A stretch of DNA of 11,922 bases from Spirochaetales bacterium. Lineage in GTDB: Bacteria > Spirochaetota > Spirochaetia > Treponematales > UBA12059. Positions within the stretch are counted from its first letter, which is position 1; each line of letters opens with the position of its first letter. Positions 1 to 7,270 of the stretch are shown here, piece after piece. Both the position numbers and the translations under genes were made by a program. The DNA is taken from assembly GCA_004525355.1 (NCBI GenBank), contig SPCK01000028.1, forward strand, positions 1 through 11,922, in the 5' to 3' direction. The notes under the pieces are model-generated. The model was given only the letters and a program-made list of their open reading frames with translations. It ran no database searches and was not told the DNA's origin.

Positions 1-344
1 AGCTACAGACGGCCGAAATGGGACGGGTACTGGTGACCGATACCGATCCGCCCGCCGTCGGCGCCAGGGTGAGCTGGACGGTACGCCCGGAAAAGATACG
101 CATTGAGCTCGACAAGCCGACCAAGGCGCGCGACGGTCTCAACATGGTTTCCGGCACCGTGGAAGAACCCATCTATTCCGGCTTCCAGAGCAAGTTCTAC
201 GTCAAGACGACCGCGGGAGCCACGCTCAAGGTGATCAAGCAGCACGCAGATTGGTCGGACGAGGGGCCGGAGATTGCCTGGAAGGACAAGGTGTGGCTGT
301 CCTTCAGCGCCGAGGACGCCTTCCTGGTGGAGGTCAAGCGATGA
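1..344 (+). CDS. potA: Polyamine ABC transporter ATP-binding protein PotA, C-terminal end (5' partial)
   Basis: This is the last 113 codons of a gene that enters from the left; the reading frame is open from base 3 and ends in TGA at 342-344. The visible part is the C-terminal regulatory (TOBE-like) domain found after the ATPase domain in PotA/MalK-type subunits. The segment VSWTVRPEKIRIEL is the typical strand entering that domain, and a second beta-rich stretch follows (GTVEEPIYSGFQSKFYVKT). Walker A, Walker B and the ABC signature lie outside the window. The assignment rests on this tail and on the immediate downstream order potB-potC-potD. The family role is ATP hydrolysis at the inner face of the membrane to drive polyamine uptake. 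The internal ATG at 18 is not the real start. The stop overlaps the potB start (ATGA), so the two are probably translationally coupled. Confidence 0.85.
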   Translation, partial: LQTAEMGRVLVTDTDPPAVGARVSWTVRPEKIRIELDKPTKARDGLNMVSGTVEEPIYSGFQSKFYVKTTAGATLKVIKQHADWSDEGPEIAWKDKVWLSFSAEDAFLVEVKR

Positions 345-1285
345 AACGGGGGCCCGGCAGCCTGTACGCTGCCCCGTCCATCCTATGGCTGTCGGTATTC
401 TTCATCGCTCCGTTGTTCATCATCGTGATCTACAGCTTTCTGACCTCGGGGCCACGCGGCGGCGTGATATGGCGCTTTACACTCGATGCCTACCGGGCCA
501 TCATCAATCCGACCTTCGCCAAAGTGACCCTGAGCACCATTGTCGTGGCCCTGGGTTCTACTGTGGTTACCCTGCTCATCGCACTGCCCTGCGGATATTT
601 CATGGCCCGAAGCCAGAAACAGAATGTGTTGCTGCTTTTGGTCATCATCCCTTTCTGGACCAATTTCCTGATACGCATCTACGCGTGGATAGCCATCCTG
701 GGCAACGAGGGTTTCCTGAACGATCTCCTGCGCGCGCTCGGACTGGCCAATGACTCGATCCGTTTCCTGTACAACCGTTGGGCGGTGGCCCTCGTCCTGG
801 TGTACAGCTATCTGCCCTACGCGATACTGCCGCTGTTCTCTACCATAGACAAGTTTGACTTTTCTCTCCTGGAAGCAGCGCGCGACCTTGGCGCGAGCAA
901 GCTGGGCGCTATCTGGCGCGTGCTCCTGCCCAATATAAAAGGCGGCGTGCTTACGGCCTTCCTGTTCACGTTCATACCTATCTTCGGAGCCTACGCCGTG
1001 CCTCTGCTGGTCGGAGGCACAGAGTCCTACATGCTGGGCAACCTGATAGCCGACGAACTGACCAAGGCCAGGAACTGGCCGCTGGCATCCGCGATATCCT
1101 TGGTCATCACCCTGGTGACCACGCTTGGCGTACTCCTCCTGCTGCGGGCCAATGGGACCAGTGTCCTTGGCGGAGGGCGCGTGGAAAACGAGGTTGGGCT
1201 CATCGCCGAGCCGGCGATCGCCGAGCCGTTGGTCGCCGAGCCGTTGGTCGCCGAGCCGGCGATCGCCAATGGAAACGGCACATGA
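341..1285 (+). CDS. potB: Polyamine ABC transporter permease PotB
   Basis: A 314-residue inner-membrane permease. The ATG at 341 overlaps the potA stop and has GGAGG at 329-333, seven bases upstream, so it is preferred over the in-frame ATG at 251 inside potA. The N-terminus (SILWLSVFFIAPLFIIVIYSF) is the first membrane helix. Further hydrophobic segments lie near residues 64-88, 96-121, 148-166, 203-224 and 248-268. The cytoplasmic loop that docks on the ATPase, the EAA loop, is at residues 178-197 (EAARDLGASKLGAIWRVLLP). The family role is one half of the membrane channel, paired with PotC. Unusually, the protein ends in a hydrophilic tail with a pentapeptide repeat, AEPAI-AEPLV-AEPLV-AEPAI (residues 289-308), after the last helix; I know of no such tail in characterised PotB proteins. 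The gene overlaps potC by 4 bp. Confidence 0.93.
   Translation: MKRGPGSLYAAPSILWLSVFFIAPLFIIVIYSFLTSGPRGGVIWRFTLDAYRAIINPTFAKVTLSTIVVALGSTVVTLLIALPCGYFMARSQKQNVLLLLVIIPFWTNFLIRIYAWIAILGNEGFLNDLLRALGLANDSIRFLYNRWAVALVLVYSYLPYAILPLFSTIDKFDFSLLEAARDLGASKLGAIWRVLLPNIKGGVLTAFLFTFIPIFGAYAVPLLVGGTESYMLGNLIADELTKARNWPLASAISLVITLVTTLGVLLLLRANGTSVLGGGRVENEVGLIAEPAIAEPLVAEPLVAEPAIANGNGT
1205..1264 (+). repeat. Four 15-bp tandem repeats in the 3' end of potB
   Basis: Four contiguous 15-bp units (1205-1219, 1220-1234, 1235-1249, 1250-1264). Units 1 and 4 are identical (GCCGAGCCGGCGATC) and units 2 and 3 are identical (GCCGAGCCGTTGGTC), giving an A-B-B-A order. The unit length is a multiple of three, so the copies translate to AEPAI/AEPLV repeats and a change in copy number would keep the frame. 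They encode the hydrophilic C-terminal tail. Confidence 0.95.
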
Positions 1286-2061
1286 GGCGGAGAAGCTCCT
1301 TCTCCCGGGCCGTGTTCACTGGGACTATTGTCTTCCTGTTCCTTCCGCTGGCGGTGCTCGTCTTTTATTCGTTCAACGCGTCAAAGTCGGGATCCTGGGG
1401 AGGTTTTTCGCTGCGCTGGTACGTCAAGCTGTTCACCGACTCCCCGGACCTGTGGCGGGCGTTTGGGAACAGCGCCATCGTGGCACTCGGATCCGCCCTT
1501 GTGGCGACGGCCATCGGCACGTTGGGGGCGGTGGGTGTCAATTGGTACCGCTTCCGCCTGAGATCCTACTTACGTACGATAACCTTCCTGCCCATGATTC
1601 TGCCTGAGATCATCATCGGCGTGTCCCTGCTGGTGTTCTTCTCTGGGATCGGGCTCAGGCTGGGACTGTTCACCATATTCGTGGCCCACGTGTCCTTCAA
1701 CCTACCGTTCGTGTTCCTTTTAGTGCTGGCTCGCCTGGAGGAGTTCGACTTCTCCATCATCGAGGCGGCGCGGGACCTGGGAGCCAACGATTCGCAGACC
1801 CTGCTGCGGGTGATACTGCCCATGTCCATGCCGGGTATCGTATCCGGGTTTCTGACGGCCGTGACGCTCTCCCTGGAGGACTTCGTCATCACGTTCTTCG
1901 TGACCGGCCCGGGAGCCACCACGTTGCCCCTGTACGTCTATTCCGCCATCCGCTTCGGCGTCTCTCCGGTCATCAACGCGCTCTCGGTCGTGATGATCCT
2001 TGGGACCGTAGCGCTTACGTGGTCCATGCGCAATTTCCTCAAGTACATAGCGGCTAAGTAA
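1282..2061 (+). CDS. potC: Polyamine ABC transporter permease PotC
   Basis: A 259-residue inner-membrane permease, the normal length for PotC. The N-terminus is basic (MRRRSSFSRA) and followed by a first helix at about 11-31 (FTGTIVFLFLPLAVLVFYSF, including the 'FYSFN' typical of the family). More hydrophobic segments occur near 64-86, 99-120, 126-149, 188-206 and 232-250. The EAA loop is at residues 161-180 (EAARDLGANDSQTLLRVILP), closely matching the one in PotB. It forms the membrane channel with PotB and receives polyamine from the PotD lipoprotein. The start overlaps the potB stop (ATGA, 1282-1285), and only a weak purine stretch (GGAAA) lies upstream, so it probably depends on coupling to potB translation. 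The TAA stop (2059-2061) overlaps the potD Shine-Dalgarno. Confidence 0.94.
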   Translation: MRRRSSFSRAVFTGTIVFLFLPLAVLVFYSFNASKSGSWGGFSLRWYVKLFTDSPDLWRAFGNSAIVALGSALVATAIGTLGAVGVNWYRFRLRSYLRTITFLPMILPEIIIGVSLLVFFSGIGLRLGLFTIFVAHVSFNLPFVFLLVLARLEEFDFSIIEAARDLGANDSQTLLRVILPMSMPGIVSGFLTAVTLSLEDFVITFFVTGPGATTLPLYVYSAIRFGVSPVINALSVVMILGTVALTWSMRNFLKYIAAK

Positions 2062-2066
2062 GGAGG
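2060..2066 (+). promoter_or_regulatory. Ribosome binding site fixing the GTG start of potD
   Basis: AAGGAGG overlaps the last two bases of the potC stop codon and lies six bases before GTG at 2073. No ATG in this frame lies near it, so this strong site supports the GTG start and a coupled potC-potD unit. Confidence 0.85.
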
Positions 2067-2072
2067 CCCATA

Positions 2073-3104
2073 GTGGCAAAAAAGGTATTTTGGGGCGTAG
2101 CCCTCGCATCGATCGTCATCATGCTTTCGGCCTGCGGAGGGAGCAAGGACAAGCTCTACCTGTACAACTGGACGTATTACATCCCCGATGACGTGATCGA
2201 GGACTTTGAGAAGGAATTCAAGGTCGACGTCATTGTGGACGCGTATTCATCCAATGAGGAAATGTACAGCAAGCTCGTCGCCGGCGGATCGGGTTACGAT
2301 TTGGTGGTTCCCTCTGGCGACTACGTATCCATCATGATAGACGAGTCCCTGCTGGAGCCGATCGACTTGGCAATGGTGCCAAATTTAAGGAACGTGGACC
2401 CATCCGCAATCGCCCGCATCGGCTTCGACCCGGGCAACAAGTACAGCGTACCCTTCATGATGGGCGCGGCGGGCGTTTCGGTGAACACGACCAGGGCCTC
2501 CGGCTACGAGCACAGCTGGGATATCTTTTCCAAGCCCGAGTTCAAAGGCCGCATGACCATGCTGGACGACATGCGCGAAGTCCTGGGCGCCGCCCTGAAA
2601 TACCTGGGATACTCGGTCAACGATGTCGACCCCGCACACCTGGAAGAAGCTCGACTCGTCGTGGAGTCATGGAAACCCAACCTGGTCAAGTTTGACGCGG
2701 AGGCATTCGCCAAGGGCTTCGCCGGCGGCGAGTTCTGGGTGGTCCAGGGATATGCCGAGAATGTTTACCTTGAGTACGACGAGGCGCGCTGGGGCGAGAT
2801 CGATTTCTTCTTCCCCAGGGAAGGCGTGCCCATGTACTTGGACAGCTTCTGCATACTCAAGGGCGCCAAGAATGCCGATACGGCCTACGACTTCATCAAC
2901 TACATGCTGCGGCCTGACATTGCCGCCCGAGTGTCCGACTACCTTATGCTACCGTCCCCGAACGTTCCCGCTCGGGCGTTGATGACTGAGAAACCCAACT
3001 ACAGCTTCGCGGATCTCGCCGCCGGGGAGTTCAAGGAGGACCTGGGACAGGAAGGACTCGCGCTGTACAACGAGATATGGCGGCGTATCCGCGTCGGTAA
3101 CTGA
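2073..3104 (+). CDS. potD: Polyamine-binding lipoprotein PotD (periplasmic/extracytoplasmic substrate-binding protein)
   Basis: A 343-residue extracytoplasmic solute-binding protein. The N-terminus is a lipoprotein signal: basic MAKK, a hydrophobic core, then the lipobox LSAC with Cys21 as the lipidation site, which supports the GTG start. The mature part opens with LYLYNWTYYIP (residues 28-38), the PotD/PotF hallmark that contributes aromatic residues to the polyamine site. YDLVVPSGDYV (75-85) and LDDMREVLGAALKYLGYS (164-181) are also family landmarks. As I remember E. coli PotD, the acidic ligands of the second segment correspond to Asp166 and Glu169, and both are kept. A further acidic ligand is probably Asp257 in MYLDSF. 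Some aromatic or acidic positions differ: Tyr35 where E. coli has Glu, Tyr255 where it has Trp. Substrate preference among polyamines therefore cannot be read from sequence. It is the last gene of the pot operon. Confidence 0.93.
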   Translation: MAKKVFWGVALASIVIMLSACGGSKDKLYLYNWTYYIPDDVIEDFEKEFKVDVIVDAYSSNEEMYSKLVAGGSGYDLVVPSGDYVSIMIDESLLEPIDLAMVPNLRNVDPSAIARIGFDPGNKYSVPFMMGAAGVSVNTTRASGYEHSWDIFSKPEFKGRMTMLDDMREVLGAALKYLGYSVNDVDPAHLEEARLVVESWKPNLVKFDAEAFAKGFAGGEFWVVQGYAENVYLEYDEARWGEIDFFFPREGVPMYLDSFCILKGAKNADTAYDFINYMLRPDIAARVSDYLMLPSPNVPARALMTEKPNYSFADLAAGEFKEDLGQEGLALYNEIWRRIRVGN

Positions 3105-3377: not shown

Positions 3378-3914
3378 CTATTCGGGCAACAATAGTATGC
3401 AGTGTTCCGGGAACGCCCATGCCGCGAATCCGTCCAGCTTCTCGCACAAGCTTGGTATACCCGTCCGATGATGCCACAAACCACCGTGTCGCCAGTCGCG
3501 CGCGTTCCCAACCTGATGTGATTCAACGGGATTCTCGTCGATATACTTGAATATCTTAATGAACTCTTGCATGCCGGAGACGATCCTCGAGAAGAAGCGC
3601 TCGCCCCATACATGTCCGACGTACCCATGAATACGATTGAACGCCATTGCGAACACGCTCATGATCCACTGCATGAGCCTGGACAACGAAGTATTCTGAC
3701 CGGGCCGTATCATCAGGTGGAAATGGTTACCCATGATGCAGAAGTTATCCAGCTTGAAGTCGTACTTCAGTTTTGCGCGCTGGAGAACCTCAAGGAATAG
3801 CTCCTTCATCGAGCACGGATCGAGGATCATTTCCTTCCGATTGGCACGAGCGGTCACGTGATACAAGGCACCATCCTGTAGAATTCTTGATTTTCGCATG
3901 CCTGATATACGCAT
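3378..3914 (-). CDS. Y1 (HUH) transposase of the IS200/REP-associated (RAYT) type
   Basis: A 178-residue single-domain transposase. The HUH motif is His64-Phe-His66 within IMGNHFHLMI, and the probable catalytic tyrosine is Tyr124 in KYIDENPV, the equivalent of the YIxxNPV tyrosine in REP-associated transposases. Other family landmarks are ILQDGALYHVTARAN (11-25), MQWIMSVFAMAFNRIHG (81-97), GHVWGERFFSRI (100-111) and DWRHGGLW (140-147). All catalytic residues are present, with no internal stop or frameshift, so the gene looks intact. These enzymes nick single-stranded DNA through a 5' phosphotyrosine link and act on hairpins. The start is uncertain: ATG at 3914 or ATG at 3899 (Met6), neither with a good Shine-Dalgarno. 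The TAG stop is followed in frame by another ATG and about 60 open codons that I do not recognise. It runs opposite to the pot operon and to the next gene. Confidence 0.9.
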   Translation of the reverse strand: MRISGMRKSRILQDGALYHVTARANRKEMILDPCSMKELFLEVLQRAKLKYDFKLDNFCIMGNHFHLMIRPGQNTSLSRLMQWIMSVFAMAFNRIHGYVGHVWGERFFSRIVSGMQEFIKIFKYIDENPVESHQVGNARDWRHGGLWHHRTGIPSLCEKLDGFAAWAFPEHCILLLPE

Positions 3915-5020: not shown

Positions 5021-7270
5021 TCAGTCCTTGAAGATCGCCGCCATGGCCTTGATGTCGCCAGCGCCGAGGGCAGCGCCCCAGCCGAGCCGGCCCGGCGAGG
5101 CGGAGAACCATGTAAGCAGCCCGGCCATCTCGTCGTAGCTGAAGGGAAGCGGACCGGACTGGTCCTTGAACTGCAGGATCAGCTTGGCCAGACGCCTGGT
5201 GGACAGGTAGAAGATCGCCTTGGTGTCGACCGGCGCTCCCGCCCGTAGCGTCCGGAAGCTGACGTCAGCTGCGAGGCTCTTGGCCGGGGCGTTCCTGCGA
5301 GCCTGCTCCAGCGCGTCCTTGACGGGTCCGAGATAAACATAGGCCTTGTCGCCCGAGTAGGTATACACGAACGACGAGAACTTCTTGAGCATGATCTCCA
5401 CTGCGCCGTCGGTCTCGTCACCGGTGACCGGGACGGCAATGTCGAGGCTGTACTGTTCCCAGGGCATGGTGCCACTGGATCCAACCTGGCGTGTCGTCGA
5501 GATCTTCATCTGTGAAGCAGACATGAGTTCTTGATAAGCGGGCAAATTGATCATGTTCATGGATTCCTGCAACGCATTCCGGTACGCCTGCCTGTCGCGA
5601 ACCTGGAAAATCCCGTTCATGTCGATGGTCAGTCCTCGTTCAAGCAACCCAGCCGCCTCGGGACCTGCGGGATCGCCCGATCTGAGGGCGGCCGCTAGAT
5701 CGTCGCTAACGGTCAGGTCCAGCGCAAATGCGCCGTTGGAGCCAGAGGCAGCGGCGGATTTTGACATCAGCCCGATCATCAGCTCTGCGAACTCGCCTTC
5801 GGGGACCATGGCTCGGTAAAAGGGTTCAAAGATGCCCAGTGCCCATTCAGGCGACGTGGACCAGACGCCCGAGGCCAGCGCGTCGGTCTCCAGCCAGGAG
5901 ATGTAGGGCAGGGAGGCCTCTCCGCGGGAGGCGGCCTCGGTGGCGGTCGTAAGGACGGTGCCTGCAACGGCGCCCACTCCGGCTCGTAGCCATACCCTGT
6001 CTTTGGTGATGGTTACGCCGAAATCAACGGAGCCAACGCCCTCCATGAAGCTCACAAAAGAATCCTTGAGCTTTCCGAGCATCTCCAGCGAGCGGTCGTC
6101 GATACCGGAATCGGCGTAGTCGTCGTATCCCTCGGCGTCCCAGTCCTCCTCGTAGGATTCCCCGTCATAGTCTTCTTCGTAGTCCTCGCCATCGGCATAC
6201 TCATCGTCCTCAGCCGGCACGTAATCGCCTATCTCGTTGTCCCACACGTAGTATGTACCGGTGTCTTCGTCGTAGTACCAGTCTTCGGAATCGTCGTCCT
6301 CGCCTTCGTCGAAGGGAACGTACTCACCTGACTCCGCATCCCATTCGTAGTACATGCCCTCAAGAGAGTCGTAGAAATATTCTGCCACGCCGTTGCCGGG
6401 ATATACCTCACCCTCATCGGACAGGAATTCGCCTGCCGATTCGTCCCAATAATAATAGGCATCATTGTCCTCGTCGTAGTACCAGTCCGGGTCCTCCCAG
6501 TTCTCGTATTCGTCGCTCTCGTACTCGTCAGTGCTGTAATCCTCGTCGTCTTCGTAGTCGTACTCGTCATCCAACCATTCCTCATCCGGCGATGGTACGA
6601 GCGAAGATAGCGCGCCGCCTATCAGGTCGCCAAGCTGCGACTGGGCTTTGGCCCGGTCGAGCCAAACGGCAATGCTGGAGGAAGGATAGGCGGCCAATGA
6701 GGAGAGGTCGGCCGCGTCGGTCTTTGCGGCCGGAGCCGCATCCATGCCCAAGCCTATGGCAAGGTAGCCGGGCAGGGCATCGGAGTATATCGGCGCGGGT
6801 GCGGACGAGCCGGCCAGCGCATCGGATAGCGCGGCCTGGATCGCGGCGCGGTCCCGGACTGGCAGGTACAGTAGCACGGCGGGTTCATTCCCATCGCCGC
6901 TGCCCACCGAGTATATCGCCGCCACGAATCGGCGGCCCAGGTCCAGGTTTTTCAGGAGACCCAGCACCGCTTGCATGCTCCCGTCTGCTTGGTCCTCATT
7001 CTGGCCTTGGTCCTGGCCCGTTCCTTCGAGCATGTCTTTCAGTTCGCGCACCTCGTCGCCGATGCTCGCGAGGCCGGTCGCGTCGACGAAGGACCCCAGG
7101 TTGTCCAGGAGGGCCTGCGGATTATCCAGGCTGATCACCGCCAGGGGCCCAGACGGCAGCACTGCCAGCGGGTCGGCAGCGGGGGCCGGGGAAGCGCTCA
7201 CGAGGAGCAGGGCAGCGGCTGCGACGGCCAGGGTGGTCATGATGGTTCGGTACGGATGACGAGTGAACAT
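5021..7270 (-). CDS. Secreted protein of unknown function with an acidic, Tyr/Trp-rich repeat block
   Basis: A 749-residue exported protein that I do not recognise as a characterised family. It begins with a Sec signal peptide: MFTRHPYR, a hydrophobic core at about 11-25, and a probable signal peptidase I site near residues 31-33 (PAPAA/DP). There is no lipobox cysteine and no later membrane helix. Residues 33-228 (DPLAVLPSGPLAVISLDNP...) and 392-749 form two ordinary-composition alpha/beta-looking halves. They loosely recall DUF3352-type proteins, which is only an impression. Between them, residues 229-391 are dominated by D, E, Y and W and include three aromatic repeats (262-283, 297-319, 330-352). 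The mature protein contains no cysteine that I can find. The ATG at 7270 is supported by AGGAG (7276-7280), five bases upstream. It is a single-gene transcription unit, divergent from iorA and convergent with the 4208 gene. A cell-surface or periplasmic binding role is conceivable but unproven. Confidence 0.85.
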   Translation of the reverse strand: MFTRHPYRTIMTTLAVAAAALLLVSASPAPAADPLAVLPSGPLAVISLDNPQALLDNLGSFVDATGLASIGDEVRELKDMLEGTGQDQGQNEDQADGSMQAVLGLLKNLDLGRRFVAAIYSVGSGDGNEPAVLLYLPVRDRAAIQAALSDALAGSSAPAPIYSDALPGYLAIGLGMDAAPAAKTDAADLSSLAAYPSSSIAVWLDRAKAQSQLGDLIGGALSSLVPSPDEEWLDDEYDYEDDEDYSTDEYESDEYENWEDPDWYYDEDNDAYYYWDESAGEFLSDEGEVYPGNGVAEYFYDSLEGMYYEWDAESGEYVPFDEGEDDDSEDWYYDEDTGTYYVWDNEIGDYVPAEDDEYADGEDYEEDYDGESYEEDWDAEGYDDYADSGIDDRSLEMLGKLKDSFVSFMEGVGSVDFGVTITKDRVWLRAGVGAVAGTVLTTATEAASRGEASLPYISWLETDALASGVWSTSPEWALGIFEPFYRAMVPEGEFAELMIGLMSKSAAASGSNGAFALDLTVSDDLAAALRSGDPAGPEAAGLLERGLTIDMNGIFQVRDRQAYRNALQESMNMINLPAYQELMSASQMKISTTRQVGSSGTMPWEQYSLDIAVPVTGDETDGAVEIMLKKFSSFVYTYSGDKAYVYLGPVKDALEQARRNAPAKSLAADVSFRTLRAGAPVDTKAIFYLSTRRLAKLILQFKDQSGPLPFSYDEMAGLLTWFSASPGRLGWGAALGAGDIKAMAAIFKD
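6215..6487 (-). repeat. Three 22-23-residue aromatic repeats inside the acidic block
   Basis: Repeat 1 covers residues 262-283 (DNA 6422-6487), repeat 2 residues 297-319 (6314-6382), repeat 3 residues 330-352 (6215-6283), so starts are 35 and 33 residues apart. Shared pattern: [DE][WY][YF]YD, four residues with Gly or Asp third, then YY, one residue, WD, three residues, G[ED][YF][LV]. Repeats 1 and 3 share a 17-bp identical DNA stretch (6267-6283 and 6471-6487, offset 204 bp or 68 codons), arguing for internal duplication. Confidence 0.85.

Follow-up and report, generated by a model that had tools for sequence, protein, structure and literature searches.

Does a strongly acidic block rich in tyrosine and tryptophan, lying in the middle of a spirochaete protein, form a folded module, and if so, how did it arise and what might it bind? 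The gene in question is found in a stretch of 11,922 nucleotides from a Spirochaetales bacterium (the window, meaning the whole stretch of DNA analyzed). The features on which the argument rests are as follows, in window coordinates.

5021 to 7270, minus strand: gene of a probably exported 749-amino acid protein (from the open reading frame list and Pfam)
7175 to 7270, minus strand: probable signal peptide, residues 1–32 (from the sequence; helix at 7–24 in the model)
6587 to 7174, minus strand: N-terminal alpha/beta half, residues 33–228 (from the full-length model; aligned in orthologues)
6098 to 6586, minus strand: acidic aromatic block, residues 229–391, where orthologues have a variable acidic linker
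6422 to 6487, minus strand: unit 1, residues 262–283, DWYYDEDNDAYYYWDESAGEFL, the weakest OCRE match
6317 to 6382, minus strand: unit 2, residues 297–318, EYFYDSLEGMYYEWDAESGEYV, OCRE 25.5 bits
6218 to 6283, minus strand: unit 3, residues 330–351, DWYYDEDTGTYYVWDNEIGDYV, OCRE 24.6 bits
5024 to 6097, minus strand: C-terminal half, residues 392–749, best structural match TP0453

A Probably Exported Protein with Two Halves

Residues 1–32 have a basic start, a hydrophobic stretch and an A-x-A motif followed by ADP, indicating that the protein is probably exported, as the first-pass annotation had supposed in calling it secreted. The Cys of a lipobox is absent from this region of the window copy. 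The N-terminal half is modeled with ten-residue means of mostly 69–93 in the full-length model, with dips at residues 81–100 and after 211. For the C-terminal half, the best structural match is TP0453 of Treponema pallidum (PDB 3k8g–3k8j), a proposed lipid carrier; modeling suggests a weak resemblance over model residues 455–737, in the neighborhood of the Mog1/PsbP fold. TP0453 is 287 amino acids long (PMC5421087) and therefore has no room for an N-terminal half and linker, and the window copy differs from it in lacking the lipid-attachment Cys. A profile of our 18-sequence homologue alignment matched 17 PDB sequences at E ≤ 10, and TP0453 was not among them.

Both halves are of ordinary composition (10.5% D+E in the N-terminal half and 11.5% in the C-terminal half). 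The block between them (163 residues, corresponding exactly to window positions 6098–6586) comprises 39 D, 34 E, 27 Y, 8 W, and 13 G, with neither Lys nor Arg and with His and Cys also absent. D+E account for 45% and Y+W+F for 23% of its residues (73 acidic and 38 aromatic), giving a net charge of −73. It had been described as almost entirely D/E/Y/W/G; these residues make up 74% of it, so that the acidic aromatic character holds and the wording is slightly strong.

The repeat motif given in the first-pass annotation matches at residues 263–282, 298–317, and 331–350, at spacings of 35 and 33 residues. When the best triple of 22-residue windows was sought without supervision, the same three places emerged with a score of 215, which none of 400 shuffles reached (mean 101, SD 11, maximum 145). 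The triple aromatic repeat between two ordinary halves is thus real. Each of its units is 22 residues long, starting at residues 262, 297, and 330, and seven columns (Y, D, YY, WD, and G) are invariant across the three.

DNA shared between units 1 and 3 had been read as a sign of recent duplication. These two are the nearest pair, with 49 of 75 nucleotides identical over 25 codons, but the recency is not supported, because codon sharing is about as expected from the gene's codon usage and the synonymous differences are 0.52–0.94 per site. The same codon is used at 9 of 12 identical residues in units 1 and 3 (7.9 expected), at 3 of 8 in units 1 and 2 (5.0 expected), and at 7 of 12 in units 2 and 3 (6.7 expected). 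Synonymous differences per site are 0.94 (units 1 and 2), 0.52 (1 and 3), and 0.72 (2 and 3), and nonsynonymous differences 0.40, 0.26, and 0.35, respectively, all of which are rough figures with 22 codons per unit. Duplication of the units, if any, would accordingly be old. The excess of synonymous over nonsynonymous differences in every pair would also be expected if the protein simply required D, E, and Y; taken with the codon use, it suits an amino acid pattern kept for some time.

Likeness of the Units to OCRE

OCRE (PF17780) is the only family that Pfam lists for the whole protein at E ≤ 10, its score of 31.1 bits passing the cut-off of 24.7. For the isolated piece containing the three units the score is 45.5 bits (E 7.6e-12), and OCRE is the top Pfam family for every unit taken singly, with 25.5 bits for unit 2, 24.6 for unit 3, and 17.1, below the cut-off, for unit 1. 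When the block was compared by phmmer with 177,635 distinct PDB sequences at E ≤ 10, two matches were found, RBM10 (E 0.013) and RBM5 (E 0.042), and both are OCRE domains. The first-pass annotation had noted this likeness as superficial; the likeness stands, and with the Pfam cut-off passed and OCRE domains as the only PDB matches the qualifier does not.

The likeness exceeds what composition would give, because full shuffles, the reversed block and control stretches all fail. With a two-sequence profile made from the RBM10 and RBM5 chains, 0 of 3000 block shuffles reached the real score (full or best domain), and the reversed block scored −20.4 bits versus 8.5 forward. This profile is crude, giving 5.2 bits for the whole protein and 2.1 for an orthologue, L014 (best domains 10.4 and 1.1). 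Pfam OCRE matched none of the eight stretches tested among nine found in unrelated bacteria that are rich in Y and W and have the same core spacing. Shuffles in which only the aromatic positions were fixed did reach the real score (2 of 3000 for the full score and 9 of 3000 for the best domain), so aromatic spacing accounts for much of the likeness. By these sequence comparisons, it rests largely on that spacing together with the G-x-Y-V-P end of units 2 and 3, the Y-V-P end being missing from unit 1.

The units share with the OCRE domains of RBM5 and RBM10 (PDB 5mf9/5mfy and 2mxw) the register [WY]-x-Y-[DN]-x5-Y-x2-W-D-x5-[YF], which in units 2 and 3 continues with V-P, and are identical to RBM5 residues 486–507 at 6 (unit 1), 11 (unit 2), and 10 (unit 3) of 22 positions. 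RBM5 OCRE is described as having a negative surface with exposed tyrosines (470, 479, 486, 488, and 495) that grip a proline-rich motif, W498 in its core, and a proline-rich tail flanked by arginines as its ligand (PMC5127646, whose residue numbering is used here). The counterpart of Tyr486 is W, Y, and W in units 1 to 3, Tyr488 and Tyr495 are Y in all three, and the core W498 is kept, while Tyr470 and Tyr479 belong to the unmatched half and have no counterpart in the units.

Each unit corresponds to the second half of the domain only. The matches span OCRE profile positions 27–51, 28–51, and 29–48 of 52 (25–51 at most in the genome scan), and a complete domain of ~52 positions, with its N-terminal octamers as well as its C-terminal half, is absent. 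The RBM5 domain, presented in the same source as a unique fold with no significant structural relatives (PMC5127646), is one twisted six-stranded sheet with an N-terminal extension, whereas three separate units with acidic spacers are predicted here. It also belongs to a eukaryotic multidomain protein, a splicing factor known from humans, whereas the present protein is bacterial, probably exported and has homologues in its own family. We considered filing the units as OCRE domains proper and rejected this, because each unit lacks one half of the domain and the predictions contain no six-stranded sheet.

Predicted Structure of the Units

AlphaFold2 run on the lone sequence gives, in the best of five models, a three-stranded meander in every unit, at the places of β4 to β6 of OCRE. 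The strands are predicted at residues 263–266, 271–276, and 281–284 (unit 1), 298–301, 306–311, and 316–319 (unit 2), and 331–334, 339–344, and 349–352 (unit 3). Ten-residue means within the units are mostly 72–82, and the pTM of 0.31 is as would be expected of independent beads. The other four models have mean pLDDT of 63.7 to 55.6 versus 69.4 for the best. In the full-length model, unit 3 has the same strands (means 81 and 84) and unit 1 nearly the same (means 71–75), whereas unit 2 has a helix at 295–303 and strands only at 308–311 and 316–319 (means 47–63). Three separate three-stranded beads are thus predicted, most weakly for unit 2, and the repeat is predicted to be largely beta, its units mostly folded and not disordered. 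Neither Foldseek nor VIA-align returned a significant match for the repeat model; the OCRE domain of RBM10 ranked fourth in Foldseek (E 0.18, nonsignificant).

Three-stranded aromatic meanders that bind proline-rich ligands are also described for the WW domain and for a WW-like segment of a mycobacterial mannosyltransferase (PMC12331936). No WW family appears in the Pfam results at E ≤ 10, whether for the whole protein or for single units, and the stretch between Y-Y and the final aromatic residue is ~2 residues shorter in the units than in the typical WW pattern.

A Variable Acidic Linker in the Relatives

Homologues of the protein were found in 22 of the 58 genomes searched, its own included, and those within its own bacterial family match over both halves. 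Three nearer homologues in the protein collection, one of them labeled Spirochaetaceae, share 46–48% identity over the C-terminal half. In the 18-sequence alignment, all 17 other sequences (two of them fragments) carry an acidic linker in the position of the block, differing in sequence, in length (31–133 amino acids), and in acidity (29–64% D+E). The block thus occupies the position of a variable acidic linker, and the units are missing from the orthologues tested: Pfam OCRE gave no match at E ≤ 5 in nine homologues (seven of them among the 17), nor in P0003. The first-pass annotation had named predicted disorder and orthologues that are acidic without the aromatic spacing as signs of a low-complexity linker; the second was found, but the units are mostly predicted as folded.

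Other linkers of the family carry repeats of other kinds, IDN[STA]G in L008 and L011, YAEDYE in L006, and EEYLDEE in P0004. In L008 and L011, runs of IDN[STA]G (e.g., GIDNTGIDNAG) stand in place of the aromatic units. Of the 11 other linkers tested, four (P0002, P0003, P0004, and L011) have internal repeats above their own 60 shuffles, and the best-triple score is 257 for P0003 and 215 for P0004, against 215 for the block. The presence of a repeat in this linker is therefore not special. The acidic linker itself is likely dispensable for the family, because the distant homologues L016–L020 have, by eye, little or none.

The units themselves are far more restricted than the family. In genome scans with OCRE, one of the 58 relatives and one of 392 genomes from the phylum gave a score above the cut-off, in both cases at this gene, and a unit profile run over 291 genomes of the order found only this gene strongly. 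The sole genome with units is a draft of 506 contigs. A search with residues 255–366 at E ≤ 10 among 77 candidates returned only the query itself. A motif scan of an 84,980-species collection, which may omit records of or near the genome of the window, found nine places that appear unrelated.

Several look-alikes were seen elsewhere. A 505-amino acid frame of the same order (L076) contains one sequence, MYNWDHESGSYVPV, that resembles the second half of the unit and scores 21.2 bits with the unit profile. Three Bacteroidota proteins (L050, L052, and L054) have an acidic tyrosine-rich stretch with YYYDx5YYxWD spacing directly before a sub-cut-off match to the bMG3 domain of alpha-2-macroglobulin, a possible parallel case. 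Kryptonia-type proteins (L049, L051, and L055) have extreme Y/W-rich stretches, WWYYDPYWFDYYWWDW, with no Pfam match at E ≤ 10 in the stretches tested.

Possible Roles of the Block

A possible reading, and the one that we tentatively favor, is that the block comprises docking beads resembling half of OCRE that arose inside the fast-changing acidic linker of an exported two-half protein. In this lineage the hypervariable linker, joined to a TP0453-like C-terminal half, would have turned into three small beta-meander beads strung together by acidic spacers, with a bead sequence converging on the C-terminal half of OCRE (β4 to β6). In each bead an aromatic face would stand out from a strongly negative surface, and the three together may offer a strip to which an extended partner, proline-rich, rich in Arg and Lys, or otherwise cationic, docks weakly and multivalently. 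Such a partner could be periplasmic or located at the outer membrane, and docking would position both halves of the protein near it. The model for this docking is the RBM5 OCRE domain holding its proline-rich, arginine-flanked tail (PMC5127646). An origin within the linker, by convergence and old duplication, is most likely, as opposed to gene transfer from a eukaryote.

Almost as likely, the block is an acidic low-complexity spacer without a specific ligand, which would separate or solubilize the two halves or hold counter-ions, its aromatic register being an accident of tandem expansion as in the relatives with other linker repeats. The uniform acidity of the aligned linkers despite their varying length and repeat, the four other linkers that exceed their shuffles (with P0003 outscoring the block), and the near absence of a linker in L016–L020 all agree with this. 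The maintenance of seven invariant positions and of aromatic classes in the face of 0.52–0.94 synonymous differences per site speaks against it, as do the predicted beta meanders where disorder would be expected and an OCRE likeness above that of full shuffles.

Hairpins of the choline-binding or YG type, whose aromatic cages would bind cell wall or lipid head groups by cation–pi contacts, are improbable, although the choline-binding autolysin LytC ranked first in Foldseek with the repeat model (E 0.018, probability 0.80), with Pce at E 0.47. The LytC match is nonsignificant with a poor superposition (rmsd 10.5), and neither the protein nor any unit has a choline-binding or YG family listed by Pfam at E ≤ 10, so that the resemblance to YG repeats suggested by the first-pass annotation is not borne out at the sequence level. 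Both systems have short aromatic beta-hairpin repeats, but choline-binding repeats form a contiguous solenoid and are not especially acidic, whereas separate beads are predicted here. Aromatic and acidic residues would suit a quaternary amine or polyamine, and transporter genes like those at window positions 3–3104, which we take to be for polyamines, are nearby in 9 of 19 neighborhoods, the window included; however, they lie on the opposite strand, tail to tail with the gene, and in one clade.

The same neighborhood has other features of its own. A 15-bp tandem repeat of 4.4 copies (1202–1267) encodes an AEPLVAEP-type C-terminal tail of a transporter permease, and a single IS200-like transposase (Y1_Tnp; 3378–3914, minus strand) is located between the transporter operon and the gene studied here. 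A 620-amino acid open frame that runs off the contig end (10062–11921, plus strand) has a zinc peptidase-like C-HELGH-N motif and no Pfam match at E ≤ 1e-3, and related frames are present in 6 of 19 neighborhoods, the window included.

Less probable still is that the block is a true OCRE domain of eukaryotic origin that continues to bind proline-rich tails, for example those of Sm proteins. The Pfam cut-off is passed and units 2 and 3 share 10–11 of 22 residues with RBM5 486–507, but what is there is a threefold second half of the domain, without the first, at a position where relatives have other acidic sequence. Furthermore, the gene has homologues over both halves in its own bacterial family, and residues 255–366 match only themselves among the 77 candidates. 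A redox-active or metal-holding tyrosine cluster, for which 27 tyrosines and 8 tryptophans near 73 carboxylates could be cited, is hardly credible, as the block has no His or Cys and the sole redox system nearby, a pair with Pfam TPP and POR domains that is presumably indolepyruvate-ferredoxin-oxidoreductase-like, lies on the other strand.

Implications

The broader proposition that follows from the docking beads is that, within an acidic linker, bacteria can evolve tandem 22-residue beads that grip proline or cations and correspond to one half of OCRE, with no eukaryotic contribution; we consider it unlikely. If true, small aromatic sheets that recognize polyproline would have been reached independently once more, in addition to WW and OCRE, in this case in an extracytoplasmic compartment of a spirochaete. 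An independent origin of half-OCRE beads would mean that the smallest unit of the OCRE fold is shorter than thought and attainable from acidic aromatic repeats. The emergence of a folded module from low-complexity sequence would become testable, with three natural copies at hand and with linkers of relatives, which carry other repeats, as controls. The block may also provide a handle on an uncharacterized family of exported proteins with a TP0453-like half that is present in 22 of 58 related genomes.
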